Shown piece by piece: positions 57,013-64,000 of a stretch of DNA of 64,000 bases. Position 1 is the first letter of the stretch. Each line of letters opens with the position of its first letter. This DNA comes from Edaphobacter paludis (GTDB lineage: Bacteria > Acidobacteriota > Terriglobia > Terriglobales > Acidobacteriaceae): positions 1-64,000 of the forward strand of contig NZ_CP121194.1 of the NCBI RefSeq assembly GCF_039993895.1. Reading direction: 5' to 3'. The translations under genes and the position numbers were made by a program. Under the pieces are notes generated by a model. It was not told where the DNA came from. It was given only the letters and a program-made list of their open reading frames with translations, and ran no database searches.

Positions 57013-57732
57013 TCAGAGTTCGGAGAAGATCAAACAGACGCGCCCAACGATGTAATCGGCTGGCGATTCGTGCGACGCCAGTGGTATAAGCTGCACCGGA
57101 AAATCGCGCGAATAAGGCCGCAGAATAAGATGTCCTTCGTCGAAATCCACATAGCGAAGCAGCAGCGCCGTGCCACAGCGCACCGCATACAGCGTTGGTT
57201 GGTGCGCCCGATACGGTGCCAGCGAGTTGTAATGGCGGTCCAGCACGACAATCGCTCCCGGAGCCAGCAGCGGCTCCATCGCCGCCGACTGCTGCGCGTC
57301 CGCGCGAATGGCGACGAAACGCTGCCAGTGCGAGTGGCCGGTCGATGGGCGGGCGCGGTTGTCGTGAAGCCGCGAGCCTGACACCTGGACGTTCTCGATG
57401 ATCGAGGCCTCGGCCACGCGAGGTTCGTCCATCGCCACCGAGGAGGAGACAACCGGAACGATGTCTGTCGGCTCCTGTGTCTGGGCAGAAGCATGAGATG
57501 CGGCGGCAGCGGCCAAATCGAGAGGAAGAATCTGGTCAATGGTGAGGTTCTGCGACGCCAGCACGCGGTCAAGTCCTTCGAGCGAGAGCGCGCGCTTGCG
57601 GTTGAGGAAATTCGAGATGTGGGCCTGTTGAAAGCCGGCCTGCTGCGCGAGACGGCTTCCGGTCAGCGAGCCGCGTTCGATGCGGCGTTGAAGTTCGATG
57701 CGGAGGAGTTCGTGCAAATCTTGAAAATTCAT
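57013..57732 (-). CDS. XRE-type regulator with inactive S24/LexA-like C-terminal domain
   Basis: 239 residues. The N-terminal helix-turn-helix (GSRLAQQAGFQQAHISNFLNRKRALSLEGLDRVL, about 25-58) is of the Xre/Cro type. A linker rich in Ala, Ser and Pro joins a C-terminal S24-peptidase-like fold (MEPLLAPGAIVVLDR...LILRPYSRDFPVQLIPL). The position of the LexA/CI catalytic Ser (S-M) is Ala (SAAMEP), and no Lys sits at the second catalytic position (ALLLRYVD). It therefore should not self-cleave. It lies beside the phage module and might be its regulator, though it also looks like a host regulator. Confidence 0.85.
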   Translation of the reverse strand: MNFQDLHELLRIELQRRIERGSLTGSRLAQQAGFQQAHISNFLNRKRALSLEGLDRVLASQNLTIDQILPLDLAAAAASHASAQTQEPTDIVPVVSSSVAMDEPRVAEASIIENVQVSGSRLHDNRARPSTGHSHWQRFVAIRADAQQSAAMEPLLAPGAIVVLDRHYNSLAPYRAHQPTLYAVRCGTALLLRYVDFDEGHLILRPYSRDFPVQLIPLASHESPADYIVGRVCLIFSEL

Positions 57733-58207: not shown

Positions 58208-58429
58208 ATGAAAGACTTGCGCTTGGTTATCAAAGTATGTGAGGGCTGGGGGGGGCTTTGGCTTCGCACGGAATCATCGGATGGTGTCTATTGTGAGGGA
58301 TGCGTACGCCACCTCTCCCGGTTTCCACCGCCGCGGGGAAGACACGCGGGCGGAAGAAAGCCGCGATTGGCACGGGTTTCGCGCTGCTCCGCAACAGCGG
58401 CAGCAGGCACCAATGGAGGTGCCCGATGA
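58208..58429 (+). CDS. Small Cys/Arg-rich protein, coupled to the sigma-like gene
   Basis: 73 residues. AGGG lies seven bases upstream of ATG. A C-x-x-C (YCEGC, about 28-32) precedes an Arg/Gly/Pro-rich tail with GRHAGGRKPRL. It could be a small DNA- or RNA-binding protein. Its TGA overlaps the ATG of the next gene (ATGA), which supports real translation. Another reading frame over the same bases (58281-58481) is also open, so the choice is not certain. Confidence 0.5.
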   Translation: MKDLRLVIKVCEGWGGLWLRTESSDGVYCEGCVRHLSRFPPPRGRHAGGRKPRLARVSRCSATAAAGTNGGAR

Positions 58430-58929
58430 GCGCGGCCCTGGTAGTGCTCCCGATGGTCTGGGCGACGGCCCAGGTCGATGAAGCGGCCAAGAAGGGGATG
58501 GAGCGGAAGGCGGTGACCCGATCGCTGGCGTTCTATCGAAAGTACACCGAGGCCCTGCTGCGGCGGTACGCACATATGGCGATGGAAACGGGTAGGGTGC
58601 CGTCCCTCCTGGGAAGGGAGCTGTTTCGCGGCAAGGTAACCAACTACGTCGTCCGCGGCTTCGATGACGTCGTAATCTTCGTCCACGACGTGGAGCAATG
58701 CCTCCAGCGACTGGACGACGAAGAGCAGCAAATGATCGAGCGGATCGCCGTGCAGGAGTACACACTGGAGGAGGCGGCAGGCTTGATGTGCCTTCCTCTC
58801 TGGACCGTGAACCGGAGATATGGTGACGCTCTGGATATAGTGACGAGGATGTTCCTGGACCGGAAGATGCTTGAACCCGCGATTTGCTGTCAAGAGGCGC
58901 AAACCGTGGATATCTCGCTATATAACTGA
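58426..58929 (+). CDS. Sigma-70 region-4-like regulator of the phage module
   Basis: 167 residues from ATG 58426 (GGAGG seven bases upstream). The open frame begins earlier at 58300 but that part is not needed. Residues about 95-145 (LDDEEQQMIERIAVQEYTLEEAAGLMCLPLWTVNRRYGDALDIV) read as a sigma-70 region-4 helix-turn-helix. The rest is basic and helical. No region 2 is seen, so it is not a full sigma factor. Such proteins act as late-gene activators in phages (RinA/ArpU-like). Intrinsic terminator at 59013-59043. Confidence 0.75.
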   Translation: MSAALVVLPMVWATAQVDEAAKKGMERKAVTRSLAFYRKYTEALLRRYAHMAMETGRVPSLLGRELFRGKVTNYVVRGFDDVVIFVHDVEQCLQRLDDEEQQMIERIAVQEYTLEEAAGLMCLPLWTVNRRYGDALDIVTRMFLDRKMLEPAICCQEAQTVDISLYN

Positions 58930-59012
58930 TTCAATTGTAGATAATAATTTTCCCAAAACTGCAAAACAGTTTCACCGCACTTGCTATTCTGGATAGGTAA
59001 GTGAGAACTGTG

Positions 59013-59050
59013 ACGGGAGAGCGCCTGAGGGCTGCTCTCCCGTTTTGTTT
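59013..59050 (+). terminator. Intrinsic terminator after the sigma-like gene
   Basis: Perfect 10-bp stem (59013-59022 with 59034-59043) with an 11-nt loop, followed by a T-rich run. A -10-like TATTCT lies at 58985-58990, so a short RNA of about 50 nt could also be made here. Confidence 0.85.
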
Positions 59051-59073
59051 TGGGGGGAACTTTGGGGGACAAG

Positions 59074-59301
59074 ATGGAGCGGAAGAGAGTGGCTGGACGG
59101 TTTGTGGCGGAAGACAAAGGTGGAGTTGCCAGGAAGCGAGCGGCAACTCCTCGGGCAAAGGAAGGGAGCGTTCAGCAGGAGACAGTTTTGGTTAAGCCGG
59201 AGGGGCTCGGCCCCAAGAACGCTTCGCAGGCCCCGAAGCAGCGAAACAAAGGCCTGCTCGGCTCGCTGCTCGAGCGACTGAAGAAGTCACCGAAGACCTA
59301 A
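59074..59301 (+). CDS. Small basic protein of the phage-like module
   Basis: 75 residues from ATG 59074 (GGGGGA nearby). A TTG at 59050 would lie inside the terminator tail. Highly basic (MERKRVAGRF, KKSPKT end) and without a recognisable fold. Its place after the sigma-like gene and before the prohead-protease-like gene is where small terminase or connector genes often lie, but it shows no terminase motif. Function unknown. Confidence 0.55.
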   Translation: MERKRVAGRFVAEDKGGVARKRAATPRAKEGSVQQETVLVKPEGLGPKNASQAPKQRNKGLLGSLLERLKKSPKT

Positions 59302-59346
59302 GGGCTGGGCTGGAGGTGCGGCGATTAGGAATTGGTTTTGCGTAAG

Positions 59347-59400
59347 GGCACGGCTTCAGCCGTGCCATAACTGTCTGGTCGTTCGTGGGGCTTTAGCCCC
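59347..59400. repeat. Pair of short hairpins upstream of the prohead-protease-like gene
   Basis: Perfect 7-bp hairpin ggcacgg...ccgtgcc (59347-59366) and a second hairpin ggggc...gcccc (59387-59400). GC-rich paired palindromes of this kind recur between genes in acidobacterial chromosomes. Confidence 0.55.
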
Positions 59401-59424
59401 GAGGGCAGGTTTGGAGGAGGTGGC

Positions 59425-60030
59425 ATGGAAGATGGGTTGGGACTTCATCGGAAGAGTACCGGCATTGCTTGCAGAACTGGCCTGACGCAGGGTTCGGCGG
59501 GAATGGAACTGCGAGCGATGGCGGTGGAGTTTCCGGTGGTGCATGGGCATCCGAACCGGCTGCCGTTTGAAGGCGTGCTGACGCTGGTGGACGTGGCCAG
59601 CGACAAGGCGCCCAGTGGAGCACGTGGGCATCGCGTGATCTTGACGCGAGCGGCGGCGGAGGCAGCCTTGCCCAGTCTGCTCGGCATGGCGGTCGACTAC
59701 AAAGCCGGTTGGGATGGGCACGATGCGCGGCAGAAGTGCGGCATTATTACTGCCGCCGAGGTGGATGGCAAACGGCTGACCGTTGCGGGTTATCTGTTTG
59801 CCAGGGATTTTCCGGAGATGGAATCGAAGATCCAGATCGAGGGAACGATGGGAATGAGTTATGAACTTGCGGATGCGCATGTAGCAGATATGCGGTCGCA
59901 GGTCTGGACTTTGACTCGCGCCACCTTTACCGGGGCGGCGATTCTGCTGCGGGAGAAGGCCGCTTACCGGAGCACAAGTTTCCGCGTGAAGCGGCCAGTC
60001 GTTGCGCGGCGAGCGGGGTTGGCTCGTTAG
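59425..60030 (+). CDS. Phage prohead protease-like protein (HK97/U35 type)
   Basis: 201 residues from ATG 59425 (GGAGG five to seven bases upstream). H99 in AGWDGHDARQKCG and S145 in MGMSYELAD are 46 residues apart, like the His-Ser pair of HK97-type head maturation proteases. A late WTLTRATFTGAAILLR (161-176) corresponds to the Glu/Ser...PAN strand region, here with TFTGAA instead of the usual sequence. It would cut scaffold and capsid N-termini during head assembly. The terminase and portal genes that normally precede it are absent. Confidence 0.75.
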   Translation: MEDGLGLHRKSTGIACRTGLTQGSAGMELRAMAVEFPVVHGHPNRLPFEGVLTLVDVASDKAPSGARGHRVILTRAAAEAALPSLLGMAVDYKAGWDGHDARQKCGIITAAEVDGKRLTVAGYLFARDFPEMESKIQIEGTMGMSYELADAHVADMRSQVWTLTRATFTGAAILLREKAAYRSTSFRVKRPVVARRAGLAR

Positions 60031-60040
60031 TTGGGGGCCG

Positions 60041-60077
60041 GGGTGCCCACGTTCGATGTTGCGGACGTGGGGCACCC
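60041..60077. repeat. Palindromic intergenic repeat, family A, copy 3 (hairpin)
   Basis: Inverted repeat gggtgcccacgttcg with cggacgtggggcaccc, one bulge. It shares its gggtgccc end with copy 1. A T-rich run follows, so it may act as a partial terminator between the protease-like gene and the next gene. Its presence inside the phage module is odd for a host repeat. Confidence 0.65.
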
Positions 60078-60103
60078 TGATTTTGTTTGAAAAAGGAGAT
60101 GCG

Positions 60104-60490
60104 ATGAGTTTTTTGGCTGTGCTCGAAGAGGTTGGCAAGGACTTTGAGAAGGGATTGATCTGGGCCGTAAAGTATGCGGTCCCGGTGGAGAAGCTGGTGG
60201 GCCTTCTGTTTCCACAGGCTGCTCCGGCAGTGGCTGCGGTTGCCGATGCAACCACATTGATACAAGGCGCAGTGCTGCTGGTCGAACAGAAGTATGCCGC
60301 CAGCGGTGCTCAGCACGGAACGGGAGCGCAGAAGCTGGCCGAGGTCATGGCACTGGCTGGATCAGCGGTAACGTCGCTGTTGCAGCAGGCCGGCATCCTG
60401 GCGACCACCGGATATGTGGAGAGCCTGGTCTCGGCCGTGGTCGGCGTGTTGAACGTCCAGGCTATGCCGGCGGCCAAGACTGCCGCTTGA
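60104..60490 (+). CDS. Phage-module hypothetical protein
   Basis: 128 residues from ATG 60104 (AAAGGAG upstream). The open frame from 60002 is partly the hairpin of repeat copy 3 and is not used. Hydrophobic and helical, with VEKLVGLLFPQAAPAVAAVADATTLI and a C-terminal ILATTGYVESLVSAVVGVLNVQ stretch, possibly one or two amphipathic or membrane helices. It could be a holin-like or head-decoration protein. Unrecognised. Confidence 0.7.
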   Translation: MSFLAVLEEVGKDFEKGLIWAVKYAVPVEKLVGLLFPQAAPAVAAVADATTLIQGAVLLVEQKYAASGAQHGTGAQKLAEVMALAGSAVTSLLQQAGILATTGYVESLVSAVVGVLNVQAMPAAKTAA

Positions 60491-60493
60491 TGC

Positions 60494-60580
60494 TTTACAC
60501 CGATCTGCGCGATTTACACCGACCAAAACAGGTGGTGGAAAAATCGATCTTCCAATGTTCATTGGCGTAATCGGTGTTAA
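60494..60580. repeat. Three copies of a 10-bp word TTTACACCGA
   Basis: Direct copies at 60494-60503 and 60513-60522 (19-bp period) and an inverted copy with one mismatch at 60571-60580, in the 135-bp gap before the scaffold-like gene. The helical phasing of the first two (19 bp, about two turns) suggests a binding site for a regulator; alternatively it is a remnant of a dispersed repeat. Confidence 0.45.
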
Positions 60581-60625
60581 GTAGTTCCTGCCTTACTCGT
60601 AACACAACTAAAGATTGAGGAGCGT

Positions 60626-61039
60626 ATGGAGATGGAATTGAAAGACGAGTTGGGAGTGACCGTGGAGCGGCTCGCCGCTGCGGCTGGTTTGCTGGAGCAG
60701 GCGGTGGAGCGATTGGCGCAGCGCCAGAGCGACTCCGAGGAATCGATTGGACGCATCGTCGCCACAGTCGAGGCCCAGCGCGAGACAGAGCTTGAGGCGA
60801 AGCTCGCGGCTGCCGAGGCCGAGATCGCCGAGCTGCGGGCCGCGGCCGCTTCTGCAACTCATACAGTTACAAATGGACGGAAGACCCTGCCCATTGCCAT
60901 GGCGAACCTGCTGGCAAAACAGGGCGTGACTGTCGATTCGATGGAGGCTGGCGCACTGGATGCTGCCCTTGTCAGTTTGAGCATGGAACAGCGCATCGCG
61001 GTGAAAGCTCAATTGATGCGGGCTGGCCTGCTGGGCTAG
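60626..61039 (+). CDS. Putative capsid scaffolding protein
   Basis: 137 residues. GAGGAG lies four bases before ATG (a second ATG is two codons later). Residues 14-75 form a strongly helical, Ala/Glu/Gln/Arg-rich coiled coil; the rest is a short globular tail (ANLLAKQGVTVDSMEAGALDAALVSL). Place and composition between protease and major capsid fit a scaffolding protein, which is cleaved during maturation. No sequence motif proves it. Confidence 0.65.
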   Translation: MEMELKDELGVTVERLAAAAGLLEQAVERLAQRQSDSEESIGRIVATVEAQRETELEAKLAAAEAEIAELRAAAASATHTVTNGRKTLPIAMANLLAKQGVTVDSMEAGALDAALVSLSMEQRIAVKAQLMRAGLLG

Positions 61040-61086
61040 AGCAAAGACTTCGCCCGCAAATTTCGTGCGACGAACATCGATAGAAC

Positions 61087-61119
61087 AACGGCGCGGCTTC
61101 GGCTGCGCCGTTCTTATTT
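61087..61119 (+). terminator. Hairpin upstream of the major-capsid-like gene
   Basis: 11-bp stem with one mismatch (61087-61097 with 61102-61112), a ttcg tetraloop and a T-rich tail. It may act as an attenuator or protect the 5' end of the capsid mRNA. Confidence 0.65.
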
Positions 61120-61136
61120 GAAAGGGAGATTTGAGA

Positions 61137-62108
61137 ATGAACGCAAAGTTTACTGAGATTCATGCAGCAGCCGACTACCTTGGACCTGGCGCGATTGAAG
61201 TTCCGATGTATCAGTCGGAGATCACCGACCTGGTGCAGCGACGCGGCGTCTTCGGTCGAAGGATCAAGCAGGTTCCTGCTACCGGACATCCATCGCGGTT
61301 CTTTGAAGAGACGTCGATTCCCTCGCCCACGGCGGCTTCAGGATTTGTCGACCCTCGCAACATTGTCGCGCCGCTGGTTAATCCCACGCGGCTTGAGCGC
61401 AGCGTTCCGCTGAAGGCCCTTGTCGCGCAGATCAACTACAACTTGTTCGACATCGAGCTTGGCCAGCAGCAGAGCCAGTTTGCCTATCTGCAAGCCAAGG
61501 ACCTCGCCGATACCGTCGACGGCGTTCTTCGCACGCATGATGTCGCGCTGTGGAACGGCAACGATACGAGCCTGAGTGCGCCTACGACTGCGCAGTATTT
61601 CGGCGCGGCTGCGCAGATCGCCGCCGGCGGCAATACCACTACCATCGGCACGTCGCAGAGCATCGTCGATGGCTTCAAGTCCACGATCGCGCAGATGGTT
61701 TCGAACAGCTCCTACGGTGTTCGGCCGACCGCCATCTATGCCAATCCGGTGCTGCTCGACCTCATCGATCGCGAGATGAAGTCCGAGTTCAACGTTGTCC
61801 TCAATACGAAGGAGATCGCTGCCGGACTTTCCGTCAAGACTCTCTCGACACAGGCCGGCGACATTCCACTCATTCCCGAGTGGACGTTGAGCTACACCGG
61901 CACTCCTGGTAGCGGATCGGCTGTGCTGCCTGCTTACATCGTTACGGAAGACCTCATCGAGTATCACTGGCTGAGCGATCCCAATCCGCGCATCTTCCAG
62001 CTCGGCGTTCCGGGCTCGCTGGCCTCGCAGTATGTCGTTGTGAAGTTCGGCGGCCTTGTAGTGAAGGGCGCGAACTACGCCCACTATCAGGTGCTGGTCG
62101 ACCGCTAG
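61137..62108 (+). CDS. Major capsid protein-like, HK97 fold
   Basis: 323 residues from ATG 61137 (GGGAG eight bases upstream). N-terminal ITDLVQRRGVFGRRI and the P-domain/A-domain order fit HK97-like major capsid proteins of non-cleaved type: DGVLRTHDVALWNGND and PTAIYANPVLLDLIDREMK are the typical central segments, and the C-terminal VVVKFGGLVVKGANYAHYQVLVDR ends in the usual strand. Flanked on both sides by hairpins, a common arrangement for highly expressed head genes. Confidence 0.8.
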   Translation: MNAKFTEIHAAADYLGPGAIEVPMYQSEITDLVQRRGVFGRRIKQVPATGHPSRFFEETSIPSPTAASGFVDPRNIVAPLVNPTRLERSVPLKALVAQINYNLFDIELGQQQSQFAYLQAKDLADTVDGVLRTHDVALWNGNDTSLSAPTTAQYFGAAAQIAAGGNTTTIGTSQSIVDGFKSTIAQMVSNSSYGVRPTAIYANPVLLDLIDREMKSEFNVVLNTKEIAAGLSVKTLSTQAGDIPLIPEWTLSYTGTPGSGSAVLPAYIVTEDLIEYHWLSDPNPRIFQLGVPGSLASQYVVVKFGGLVVKGANYAHYQVLVDR

Positions 62109-62138
62109 GACAGAAATCAGGGACTCGCAGGTAACTTG

Positions 62139-62178
62139 CAGGGGCCGGTGCATTTGTGTCGGTCCCTGTTTCTTTTTC
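62139..62178 (+). terminator. Intrinsic terminator after the major-capsid-like gene
   Basis: 9-bp stem with one mismatch or wobble (62139-62147 with 62160-62168) followed by tttcttttt. It overlaps the first possible start (GTG 62156) of the next gene and supports the later start at 62192. Confidence 0.75.
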
Positions 62179-62191
62179 GAGGGAGGTGGAT

Positions 62192-62815
62192 GTGGGTTAT
62201 TTATTGCCGGCGGAGTATGTGCAGTACGGGTTGACGGCGGAGACGACGGACAATTGGGTGACGATGGCGTCTGCGCTGATGGAAGCGTATTGCCGCCGTC
62301 CTAGCCTGATGGTGACGCAGTATGTGGAGCGGGTGCGGCTGACGGCAGGTGCGCAGACGGCGCGCCTGAGCTATCGTCCACTGGCTGCGGCGGCGGGTGC
62401 AACTTCGGCGCTGGTAGGCGTTAACGTGCGCTACGGACGGCCCCGACGAGGTGAGTTGCCGGATCCCTATCGCGAGCAGATTGCCTGGGCGTTCAGCGTG
62501 CCGGGAAGTTGGAATGCGTTAGACGTGGCCAGCGTGGATGTGAACGAGACGACGGCGGAGTTGACGTTCCCGATTAACTTTCTTGGGCTGAACTACAACG
62601 AAGTCGAGGTGACGTATACGTCGGGGCTCGTGACCATTCCGGATGCGGTGAAGGTGGCCTGCGTGCAGATTGTGAAGAATGCACAGGCGACTCCGGCGAT
62701 GAATGTGAAGTCAAGCCGGATAGACACGATGCAGATGCAGTACTTCAGTGGGTCGTTGATCGATGCCCAGGTGCAGTTACTGCTGCGGCCTTATGTAGCC
62801 GAAAGGCTCGGGTGA
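62192..62815 (+). CDS. Phage head-tail connector-like protein (gp6-like)
   Basis: 207 residues from GTG 62192 (GGGAGG upstream). N-terminal YLLPAEYVQYGLTAETTDNWVTMASALMEAYCRRPSL is characteristic of the head-tail connector gp6 fold, in which DNA-packaging helices pack around the portal. Later strands (VEVTYTSGLVTIPDAVKVACVQIV) complete it. It overlaps no other gene; the next begins 4 bp after its stop. Confidence 0.75.
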   Translation: MGYLLPAEYVQYGLTAETTDNWVTMASALMEAYCRRPSLMVTQYVERVRLTAGAQTARLSYRPLAAAAGATSALVGVNVRYGRPRRGELPDPYREQIAWAFSVPGSWNALDVASVDVNETTAELTFPINFLGLNYNEVEVTYTSGLVTIPDAVKVACVQIVKNAQATPAMNVKSSRIDTMQMQYFSGSLIDAQVQLLLRPYVAERLG

Positions 62816-62819
62816 CGCG

Positions 62820-63251
62820 ATGGCTGATCTGATAAGCAACCCGGATGCGGCGCTGCGGTTTGCGGAGACGTTGCTTCGCGGAGTGGGCGGCCGGTCTGTC
62901 GTGCTTCGCATGCCGGCTACGGCAAGCGCGGGTGATGTGACCGAGCAGTTGGGGCTGGCGGTGCCCCAGTTTCAGGATGTGGAACTTGCTCCCGTAGTCT
63001 TCCGTTCAGCGCGGGCGCGTGTCGTGGAGGGCAAGGCCGCGAGATGGGAGTTGCTGGTCTCTGGCTGCGCGGTGCAGGCGCTGACAGGGTCGTTGGGATT
63101 TGGCGCGGCGGAGTCGATGTTTGCTGCGGCGTTTGGCGTGTTGATCGATGGCGTGCTGATGACGGTGGAATCGGCCACGGCGGCGGAGGTAGAAGGCGCG
63201 GCTTATCTGTACCGGCTCGTATTGCACGCTCCCGTTGCGCAGGCGGTTTAG
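62820..63251 (+). CDS. Phage head-closure/tail-completion-like protein
   Basis: 143 residues from ATG 62820, 4 bp after the connector stop. Mixed alpha/beta, no recognised motif. By position it could be the head-closure or tail-completion protein. It contains an Ala/Gly-rich helical middle (GSLGFGAAESMFAAAFGVLIDGVLMTVESA). Function is inferred from neighbourhood only. Confidence 0.6.
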   Translation: MADLISNPDAALRFAETLLRGVGGRSVVLRMPATASAGDVTEQLGLAVPQFQDVELAPVVFRSARARVVEGKAARWELLVSGCAVQALTGSLGFGAAESMFAAAFGVLIDGVLMTVESATAAEVEGAAYLYRLVLHAPVAQAV

Positions 63252-63290
63252 TCCGATTGACGAAATTGTATCGAGAAAGGTTACAGATTA

Positions 63291-63785
63291 ATGCAGAACG
63301 CAAAAGATACGTTTTATACCACGCTGCGCGACCGGCTGGCGGCGGTAAACCCGGCGCGCACGATAGTCGTGAGAGGCGTGACCCGGCCGGCGGTGCTGGT
63401 CGAGGAGAACGAGCTGCCTTCTGATGCTGTGCCGGTCGATGCGTTTCGGCTGCGCTGGGTGGGGCTGAAAGCAGATCCGAATGGCGCGCAGCCGCTGGTG
63501 ACGATGAGCTGCGAGATCCGCTACGCGACCGATGGGAACTCTGGCAATGGCGGCATGGATCGCGGGCGTCTGTTGGCTGGGATGGATGCGGAGCTCGCCT
63601 CGGCCGTGAGCGAACATCCTCGAAGTGCGGTGAAGATGAGTTATTCCGCTGCGCCGCCTGTGGCCATGGGTACGAATGTGTTCTGGGGTGACGTCGCATT
63701 CAGCGCGGCTGCAACGACAGGTGAGCGGCTGGAGCGGGTGGCTACGGTGGAAGTTTTTTGCTACCAGGAAGCGGGTGAGCTGTGA
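63291..63785 (+). CDS. Phage tail-completion/terminator-like protein
   Basis: 164 residues. AAAGG about ten bases before the ATG. The N-terminal DTFYTTLRDRLAAVNPARTIVVRGVTRPAVLVEENE is a common start of tail-terminator-type proteins, with alternating strands after it. Its TGA overlaps the GTG of the next gene (GTGA), so the two are cotranslated. Confidence 0.6.
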   Translation: MQNAKDTFYTTLRDRLAAVNPARTIVVRGVTRPAVLVEENELPSDAVPVDAFRLRWVGLKADPNGAQPLVTMSCEIRYATDGNSGNGGMDRGRLLAGMDAELASAVSEHPRSAVKMSYSAAPPVAMGTNVFWGDVAFSAAATTGERLERVATVEVFCYQEAGEL

Positions 63786-64000
63786 GTGGATTGGTTGATG
63801 CAGTAGCTCCGGTGACGCGGAGGGTAAGGGCATATTTTGCTCCGGTGAACCGCGCAGCAGGCGTGCCCGCGATCTTTGACGCGGCGCAGATGGGCAGCTT
63901 TGAACTGGACGTTCCAACAGCTCCGTGGGTGGATCTGGGATGGTGTTCGGGGTTCGCTCGGAAGTGCGCAACCAAGGTTGCGCCGCTGCGAACAGGCGCT
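63782..64000 (+). CDS. Phage tail protein-like, N-terminal part (runs off the window)
   Basis: 73 codons, open to the last base. Begins at GTG 63782 overlapping the upstream stop: MSGLVDAVAPVTRRVRAYFAP, then DAAQMGSFELDVPTAPWVDLGWCSGFARK. The layout VDLGWC-x2-FARK resembles the start of a tail tube or major tail protein. Identity cannot be settled from this part. Confidence 0.65.
   Translation, partial: MSGLVDAVAPVTRRVRAYFAPVNRAAGVPAIFDAAQMGSFELDVPTAPWVDLGWCSGFARKCATKVAPLRTGA

Follow-up and report, generated by a model that had tools for sequence, protein, structure and literature searches.

Gene transfer agents (GTAs) are classed as viriforms by the International Committee on Taxonomy of Viruses (Kogay et al. 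2022, PMC9662315). They are defined by genes for caudovirion-like particles that are fully endogenised, mostly inherited vertically and co-diversify with the host and, further, by the packaging of mostly random host DNA, by a gene set that cannot be packaged as a whole and by delivery of the DNA to other cells (PMC9662315). Here we describe a cassette of phage-particle genes of about 18.6 kb, at 58.3-76.9 kb of the chromosome of Edaphobacter paludis (Acidobacteriaceae; RefSeq assembly GCF_039993895.1, contig NZ_CP121194.1). The window, i.e., the whole stretch that was analysed, comprises bases 1-64000 of this complete single-contig chromosome of 4,038,441 bases, and its edge cuts through the inside of the cassette. 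We consider it probable that the locus is an anciently domesticated, vertically inherited phage-particle cassette and most likely a GTA-like element. Comparison between genomes makes domestication a well supported reading, while packaging and transfer of DNA are functions that we infer; the cassette is classed as GTA-like and not as a proven GTA.

Related elements have been noticed before under other names. "Cluster 153" comprises predicted active prophages of Acidobacteria (Eichorst et al. 2018, PMC5900883). Its KBS 89 member (scaffold00005, 60-90 kb) covers one of our loci (L104, KB906758.1, capsid gene at about 69.3 kb), and the cluster is very probably the same element as the cassette. No mention of a fixed locus, of vertical inheritance or of a GTA was found in that paper (PMC5900883). 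The Terriglobales proviruses of "group (ii)", which occur in Acidobacteriaceae, SbA1 and Koribacteraceae and are related to a Koribacter versatilis provirus (PMC11924767), probably overlap with the cassette set, as judged from their description. A study of peat moss (PMC12142844) brings up GTAs in general terms only, as something that cryptic phages might be. In a literature coverage that leaves subscription papers and preprints mostly outside, we found nothing that calls the element vertically inherited or a GTA.

The cassette and its chromosomal setting

As read from the sequence, the cassette contains genes for a terminase, a portal, a protease-like and a scaffold-like protein, a capsid, a connector and a few tail-type proteins. 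Its G+C content and codon usage are near host values, and when the chromosome is read past the window its 3' neighbours are the host genes purE (start 77032) and purK. An earlier note, made from the window alone, had described a run of head-type genes in order but without terminase or portal, possibly GTA-like or defective. The ordered run is borne out at 58.3-64 kb. The two seemingly missing genes, however, lie downstream, the large terminase subunit TerL at 69490-71001 (PHROG_2, E 2e-25; PF17289 above cut-off) and the portal at 73088-74326 (PF04860, E 4e-51). Extension past 64 kb, which the note had proposed as a check, thus yields terminase, portal and tail genes and then purE; packaging genes placed downstream of the window had been the note's own alternative. 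Their apparent lack is explained by the window edge together with a clade-specific block swap. A complete packaging and head set is present, and "defective" is not supported.

The block swap emerges from a comparison with ten genomes from elsewhere in the family, all of other genera and chosen for large contigs or closed chromosomes. Their canonical order is fibre (where recognisable), terminase, HipA-like protein, DUF3037 protein, portal, protease, scaffold, capsid, connector, two completion genes, tube, a 772-aa protein and a 72-aa protein. Among 80 loci from GTDB and those from IMG/VR only two arrangements occur, the canonical one in most of the family and a block-swapped one, with the head block ahead of the fibre-terminase block, in the clade of the window; the records of the latter are labelled mostly Edaphobacter, Granulicella or unnamed Acidobacteriaceae. 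In the window genome the portal gene (end 74326) abuts the 772-aa gene (start 74323), which is what removal of the head block from between these two genes would leave. Judged from the gene orders, the swap is shared by descent across this clade.

A fixed locus with deletion scars

Within the genus, 50 of 62 genomes encode the terminase. In 41 of these 50 carriers purE lies within 10 kb (≤10 kb) of it, and in the remaining 9 the terminase is farther from purE on the chromosome or on another contig. Across the family, the capsid profile matches 147 of 250 sampled genomes in 52 of 79 genera, nearly always as one copy, and 116 of the 177 genomes of high quality. In a sample of the whole order all capsid matches, among the matches listed, fall in Acidobacteriaceae. 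A scan of GTDB r220 gave 185 capsid-encoding loci; in the best 80 of these 185 the capsid is 77-94% identical and the labels are almost entirely Acidobacteriaceae or Acidobacteria. Two labels among these 80 lie outside the phylum, a Verrucomicrobia bin and a Rhodanobacteraceae bin, which may be binning errors. The portal profile, run without a positive control against 22 genomes of the order and class outside this family, gave no match.

Six same-genus genomes lack the body of the cassette. They mostly retain truncated pieces of the regulator, the protease, the 72-aa gene and the flanking helix-turn-helix (HTH) gene, with differing breakpoints, and in one of them (G024) the sole remnant is a shortened HTH gene. 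Three further genomes (G021, G035 and G070) have kept the terminase-portal half and lost the capsid, and G033 has kept the head half. A clean empty site was not seen among the same-genus genomes without capsid. The remnants are most readily explained by deletions that arose independently in an ancestral cassette. The cassette is fully endogenised: it occupies the same site across the genus and in 8 of the 10 genomes of other genera, where purE-purK directly follow, with neither integrase nor attachment (att) sites.

Selection and descent

Ratios of nonsynonymous to synonymous substitution (dN/dS) were restricted to close pairs, distant pairs being near synonymous saturation. Every particle gene has a ratio well below 1, which indicates strong purifying selection. 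For the capsid, dN/dS is 0.02-0.05 in seven of eight pairs and 0.12 in the eighth, a constraint equal to that on glyA or purE; the other particle genes mostly lie at 0.03-0.2 and resemble glyA, purE and purK. Of 14 genes checked in 21 genomes, 11-14 per genome read intact, and several of the connector genes called "broken" look like an artefact of start-site choice.

The cassette is mostly inherited vertically and co-diversifies with its host. A tree of the concatenated cassette genes has 11 of 19 splits in common with an rpoB+uvrA tree, the maximum under label shuffling being 3 in 5000 trials. Cassette and host distances correlate (Mantel test, 0 of 5000), and in 13 genomes the correlation with host distances is r 0.81 for the cassette as against 0.84 for the flanking housekeeping genes. 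The shared block swap and the deletion scars agree with this descent.

Absence of an integration module

The earlier note had seen no integrase, and none appears in the 38 cassette loci: an integrase-like or replication-like extra open reading frame (ORF) was found in 0 of 38, as judged from N-termini without a domain search. The few ORFs left unmatched in these loci correspond either to the small basic protein or to isolated insertions of a different kind. Between the two intergenic flanks the longest common repeat measures 7 nt, with a chance mean of 8, and is not att-like. In addition, a tRNA gene is absent from 60 kb around the cassette. What the note had named as the mark of an ordinary prophage is therefore found in half, i.e., terminase and portal do lie further right, but an integrase with att sites does not accompany them. 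Of a replication or lysogeny module, the locus has only the flanking HTH regulator.

Genes of the cassette

The head genes are all on the forward strand. A head maturation protease-like protein (59425-60030; true start may be 59503) is assigned from conservation and position, with no database match. It is 69-85% identical across 17 genomes and has invariant GHD and GMSYE motifs, and its gene stands between those for portal and capsid both in other genera and in distant phages. A scaffold-like coiled-coil protein (60626-61039) has only weak PHROG matches and is named from its position, directly 5' of the capsid gene in nearly all loci. The product of 61131-62108 (true start probably 61137) is a putative major capsid protein, from its position and from distant phage relatives in portal-protease-capsid order. 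It is followed by a head-tail connector, or adaptor (62156-62815; PHROG_442, E 2.7e-13), and by two proteins without PHROG or Pfam family match that are named from position and conserved order, one of tail-completion type (62820-63251) and one of tail-completion or terminator type (63291-63785). Next, as the continuation of the cassette, comes a tail-tube-like protein of 321 aa (63782-64747, in the window to 64000, same strand). The protease-like and connector genes named in the earlier note thus hold up; its scaffold-like and tail-completion genes are present in order, with labels that come from position alone.

The capsid, protease-like, tube and 772-aa proteins gave no significant match in profile searches of PHROG, Pfam, NCBIfam and PDB. 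Among reference phages there was no capsid match, and portal and terminase matches were distant only. Phage contigs in IMG/VR (L254, L256, L258, L259, L263 and L265-L267) encode portal, protease and capsid relatives that are 29-49% identical (37-49% for the capsid) in canonical order. The portal-protease-capsid order of these contigs, which carry further phage genes, supports the capsid and protease assignments. They differ from the cassette in what else they carry: in the two whose ORFs were read through, a tail-sheath-like protein (L254) and a tape-measure-like protein (L267) were seen, as judged by eye. Where an IMG/VR contig encodes a closer capsid, it is in most cases a piece of this cassette. 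Three others (L197, L198 and L251, of 74, 214 and 124 kb) have a capsid 74-75% identical and no other cassette gene nearby, and are apparently large phages; this suggests exchange of the capsid gene between large phages and the inherited locus.

Beyond the window edge, a fibre of 1529 aa with a GDSL hydrolase domain (64862-69451, L002:8862-13451) precedes the terminase. Its N-terminus is a hydrophobic leader resembling a signal peptide, conserved in most relatives and unusual among phage fibres. Between terminase and portal lie a HipA-like kinase (71159-72091) and a DUF3037 protein (72136-72984), a pair that is conserved with the cassette. Both (71159-72984, L002:15159-16984) match the candidate defence pair PDC-M66A/B, with E of about 1e-9 each. 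The portal is followed by the 772-aa distal tail protein (74323-76641) and the 72-aa protein (76648-76866). Outside the cassette, a GH24 phage lysozyme gene near lipB (84647-85192, L003:8647-9192, minus strand) was considered as a linked lysis gene and rejected, as only 26 of the 62 genomes of the genus have it and it is not consistently near the cassette. It has a second copy elsewhere in the genome and may be an unlinked lysis gene. Moreover, a second terminase of another family (PF03354) at 2518663-2519184 of the chromosome (L006) suggests a separate prophage.

At the left end, a regulator on the forward strand (58300-58929), of sigma-70 region-4-like or ArpU-like late-gene type (PF04545, E 4e-5; PHROG_36, E 1e-3), has orthologues at the equivalent place in relatives, and its sigma-70 region-4-like end agrees with the sigma-like regulator of the earlier note. 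A regulator of the Cro/C1-type HTH class on the minus strand (57013-57732; Pfam HTH_26, E 0.0011, below its cut-off) flanks it. In most genomes of the genus the HTH gene adjoins the cassette; outside the genus it does so in one genome (G273), whose left side carries the same HTH gene and regulator as the window; it is also retained in several genomes that have lost the cassette, and its product is a possible candidate repressor. That its C-terminus is a degenerate S24 peptidase was considered and rejected, since Pfam shows no S24 match. A fast-evolving small basic protein (59050-59301, forward strand) has the N-terminal motif KRVAGRFV, which recurs in ORFs at the same position in relatives. 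Between its gene and the protease gene lie two perfect intergenic palindromes, both listed on the forward strand, one of 20 nt (59347-59366) that exceeds chance and one of 14 nt (59387-59400) of which 16 of 100 shuffles also yield an example. The palindromes noted earlier are thus real, but the description "host-type" lacks support, neither having a further copy in the 80 kb of chromosome checked. A small protein with weak holin-like matches (60104-60490, forward strand; PF09682, E 0.021; PHROG_20760, E 7.5e-4), unnamed in the note, is encoded inside the head run and conserved in the window's clade.

Function and rival explanations

The cassette probably arose when an ancestor of the Acidobacteriaceae captured the particle genes of a tailed phage, which were fixed beside purE and then inherited vertically, with independent decay or deletion in some lineages and the block swap in the clade of the window. 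The regulator would switch the genes on in some cells, a capsid would form, and the terminase would fill it through the portal with DNA, which would not be the element's own phage genome, none existing. Particles would exit by lysis, and fibre and tail proteins would deliver the DNA to relatives. A cassette that works through these steps would be a GTA-like element. The earlier proposal of a domesticated, GTA-like particle stands as to domestication, for which the fixed locus, the lack of integrase and att sites, vertical inheritance, purifying selection and deletion scars all argue, and GTA-like is the best supported form of it. With somewhat less confidence, we favour a GTA of the Acidobacteriota that would have an origin separate from those of known GTA families and an age near that of the Acidobacteriaceae. 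It would do with a minimal tail without tape measure, hold the HipA-like/DUF3037 pair within its packaging module and have a fibre that is possibly secreted by the host.

Several observations weigh against this interpretation. A tape-measure gene was found in no copy of the cassette, which makes a long tail doubtful, and neither a small terminase nor a consistently linked lysis enzyme was found. About one third of the high-quality family genomes have no capsid gene, so the cassette is dispensable. AlphaFold models of the capsid and tube proteins are too poor for use, with a predicted local distance difference test (pLDDT) score of about 43. Finally, cassette and host trees show three well-supported conflicts, which reflect some recombination or tree error; set beside the overall agreement of the trees, they point to mostly vertical inheritance with some recombination.

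The missing tape measure also fits a domesticated remnant that descends vertically and does another job without gene transfer, for example a HipA-like/DUF3037 anti-phage module, superinfection immunity or a DNA-free particle for killing or signalling. The match of the HipA-like and DUF3037 proteins to a candidate defence pair, their retention along with the portal in the partly deleted G021, G035 and G070, and the conserved hydrophobic leader of the fibre, as if it were secreted, all point the same way. However, capsid, protease, connector, terminase and portal are under selection at about the level of the HipA-like and DUF3037 genes and would be superfluous for pure defence, a DNA-free particle would need neither terminase nor portal, and in G117 the particle genes persist although neither a HipA-like nor a DUF3037 gene can be recognised. 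We regard another job as unlikely.

Still less probable is a temperate prophage that integrates at purE separately in each species, a strongly disfavoured reading although the gene content is phage-like and relatives have been called predicted active prophages or proviruses (PMC5900883, PMC11924767). It would have to do without integrase, replication gene, att repeat or tRNA, to leave remnants rather than empty sites in related strains, to be almost always present as a single copy at a single locus, and to produce trees congruent with those of the host and a clade-wide block swap shared by descent. Head and packaging genes without a tape measure would also suit a capsid-forming satellite that borrows the tails of a helper phage. 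Capsid-forming phage-inducible chromosomal islands (cf-PICIs) are mobile islands with integrase and replication genes whose tails are supplied by a helper. Satellites of this kind are mobile, yet the cassette sits at a fixed site, is inherited vertically, has no integrase or replication module and encodes its own fibre and distal tail protein, which leaves this the most improbable origin of all those considered.

If the cassette is a GTA, soil bacteria would exchange DNA by a route that has not yet been described for them, and a number of soil "prophages" as well as "viral" contigs of IMG/VR (most of the 25 from the first capsid search) would be pieces of host chromosome. Acidobacteria rank among the most common bacteria of soil, and the locus is present under selection in the majority of Acidobacteriaceae genomes sampled. 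Cultured carriers exist in Edaphobacter, Granulicella and relatives, which makes the idea directly testable.

Comparison with known systems

Part of the 772-aa protein resembles, at 26% identity (E 3e-17), the virion protein gp15 of Tunturiibacter phage Tunturi_4 (PP885687), which is encoded by the second gene after that phage's tape measure. Tunturi_4 is an isolated 88-kb phage with tape measure, major tail protein and endolysin, and the cassette capsid has no match to it.

Compared with known GTAs, the cassette belongs to a different phylum, has no capsid match among reference phages, lacks a tape measure and is known from its genes alone; it also carries a HipA-like/DUF3037 pair between terminase and portal and has undergone a block swap in one clade. 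As to particle genes, its terminase, portal and connector are recognised by homology; the capsid and protease assignments come from position and from distant relatives in phages. What it has in common with RcGTA, BaGTA and BhGTA (PMC9662315) are structural genes of Caudoviricete type that are fixed in the host and inherited vertically, with trees congruent with those of the host. Beside this likeness stand the lack of integrase and replication genes, decay in some lineages and purifying selection on the particle genes.

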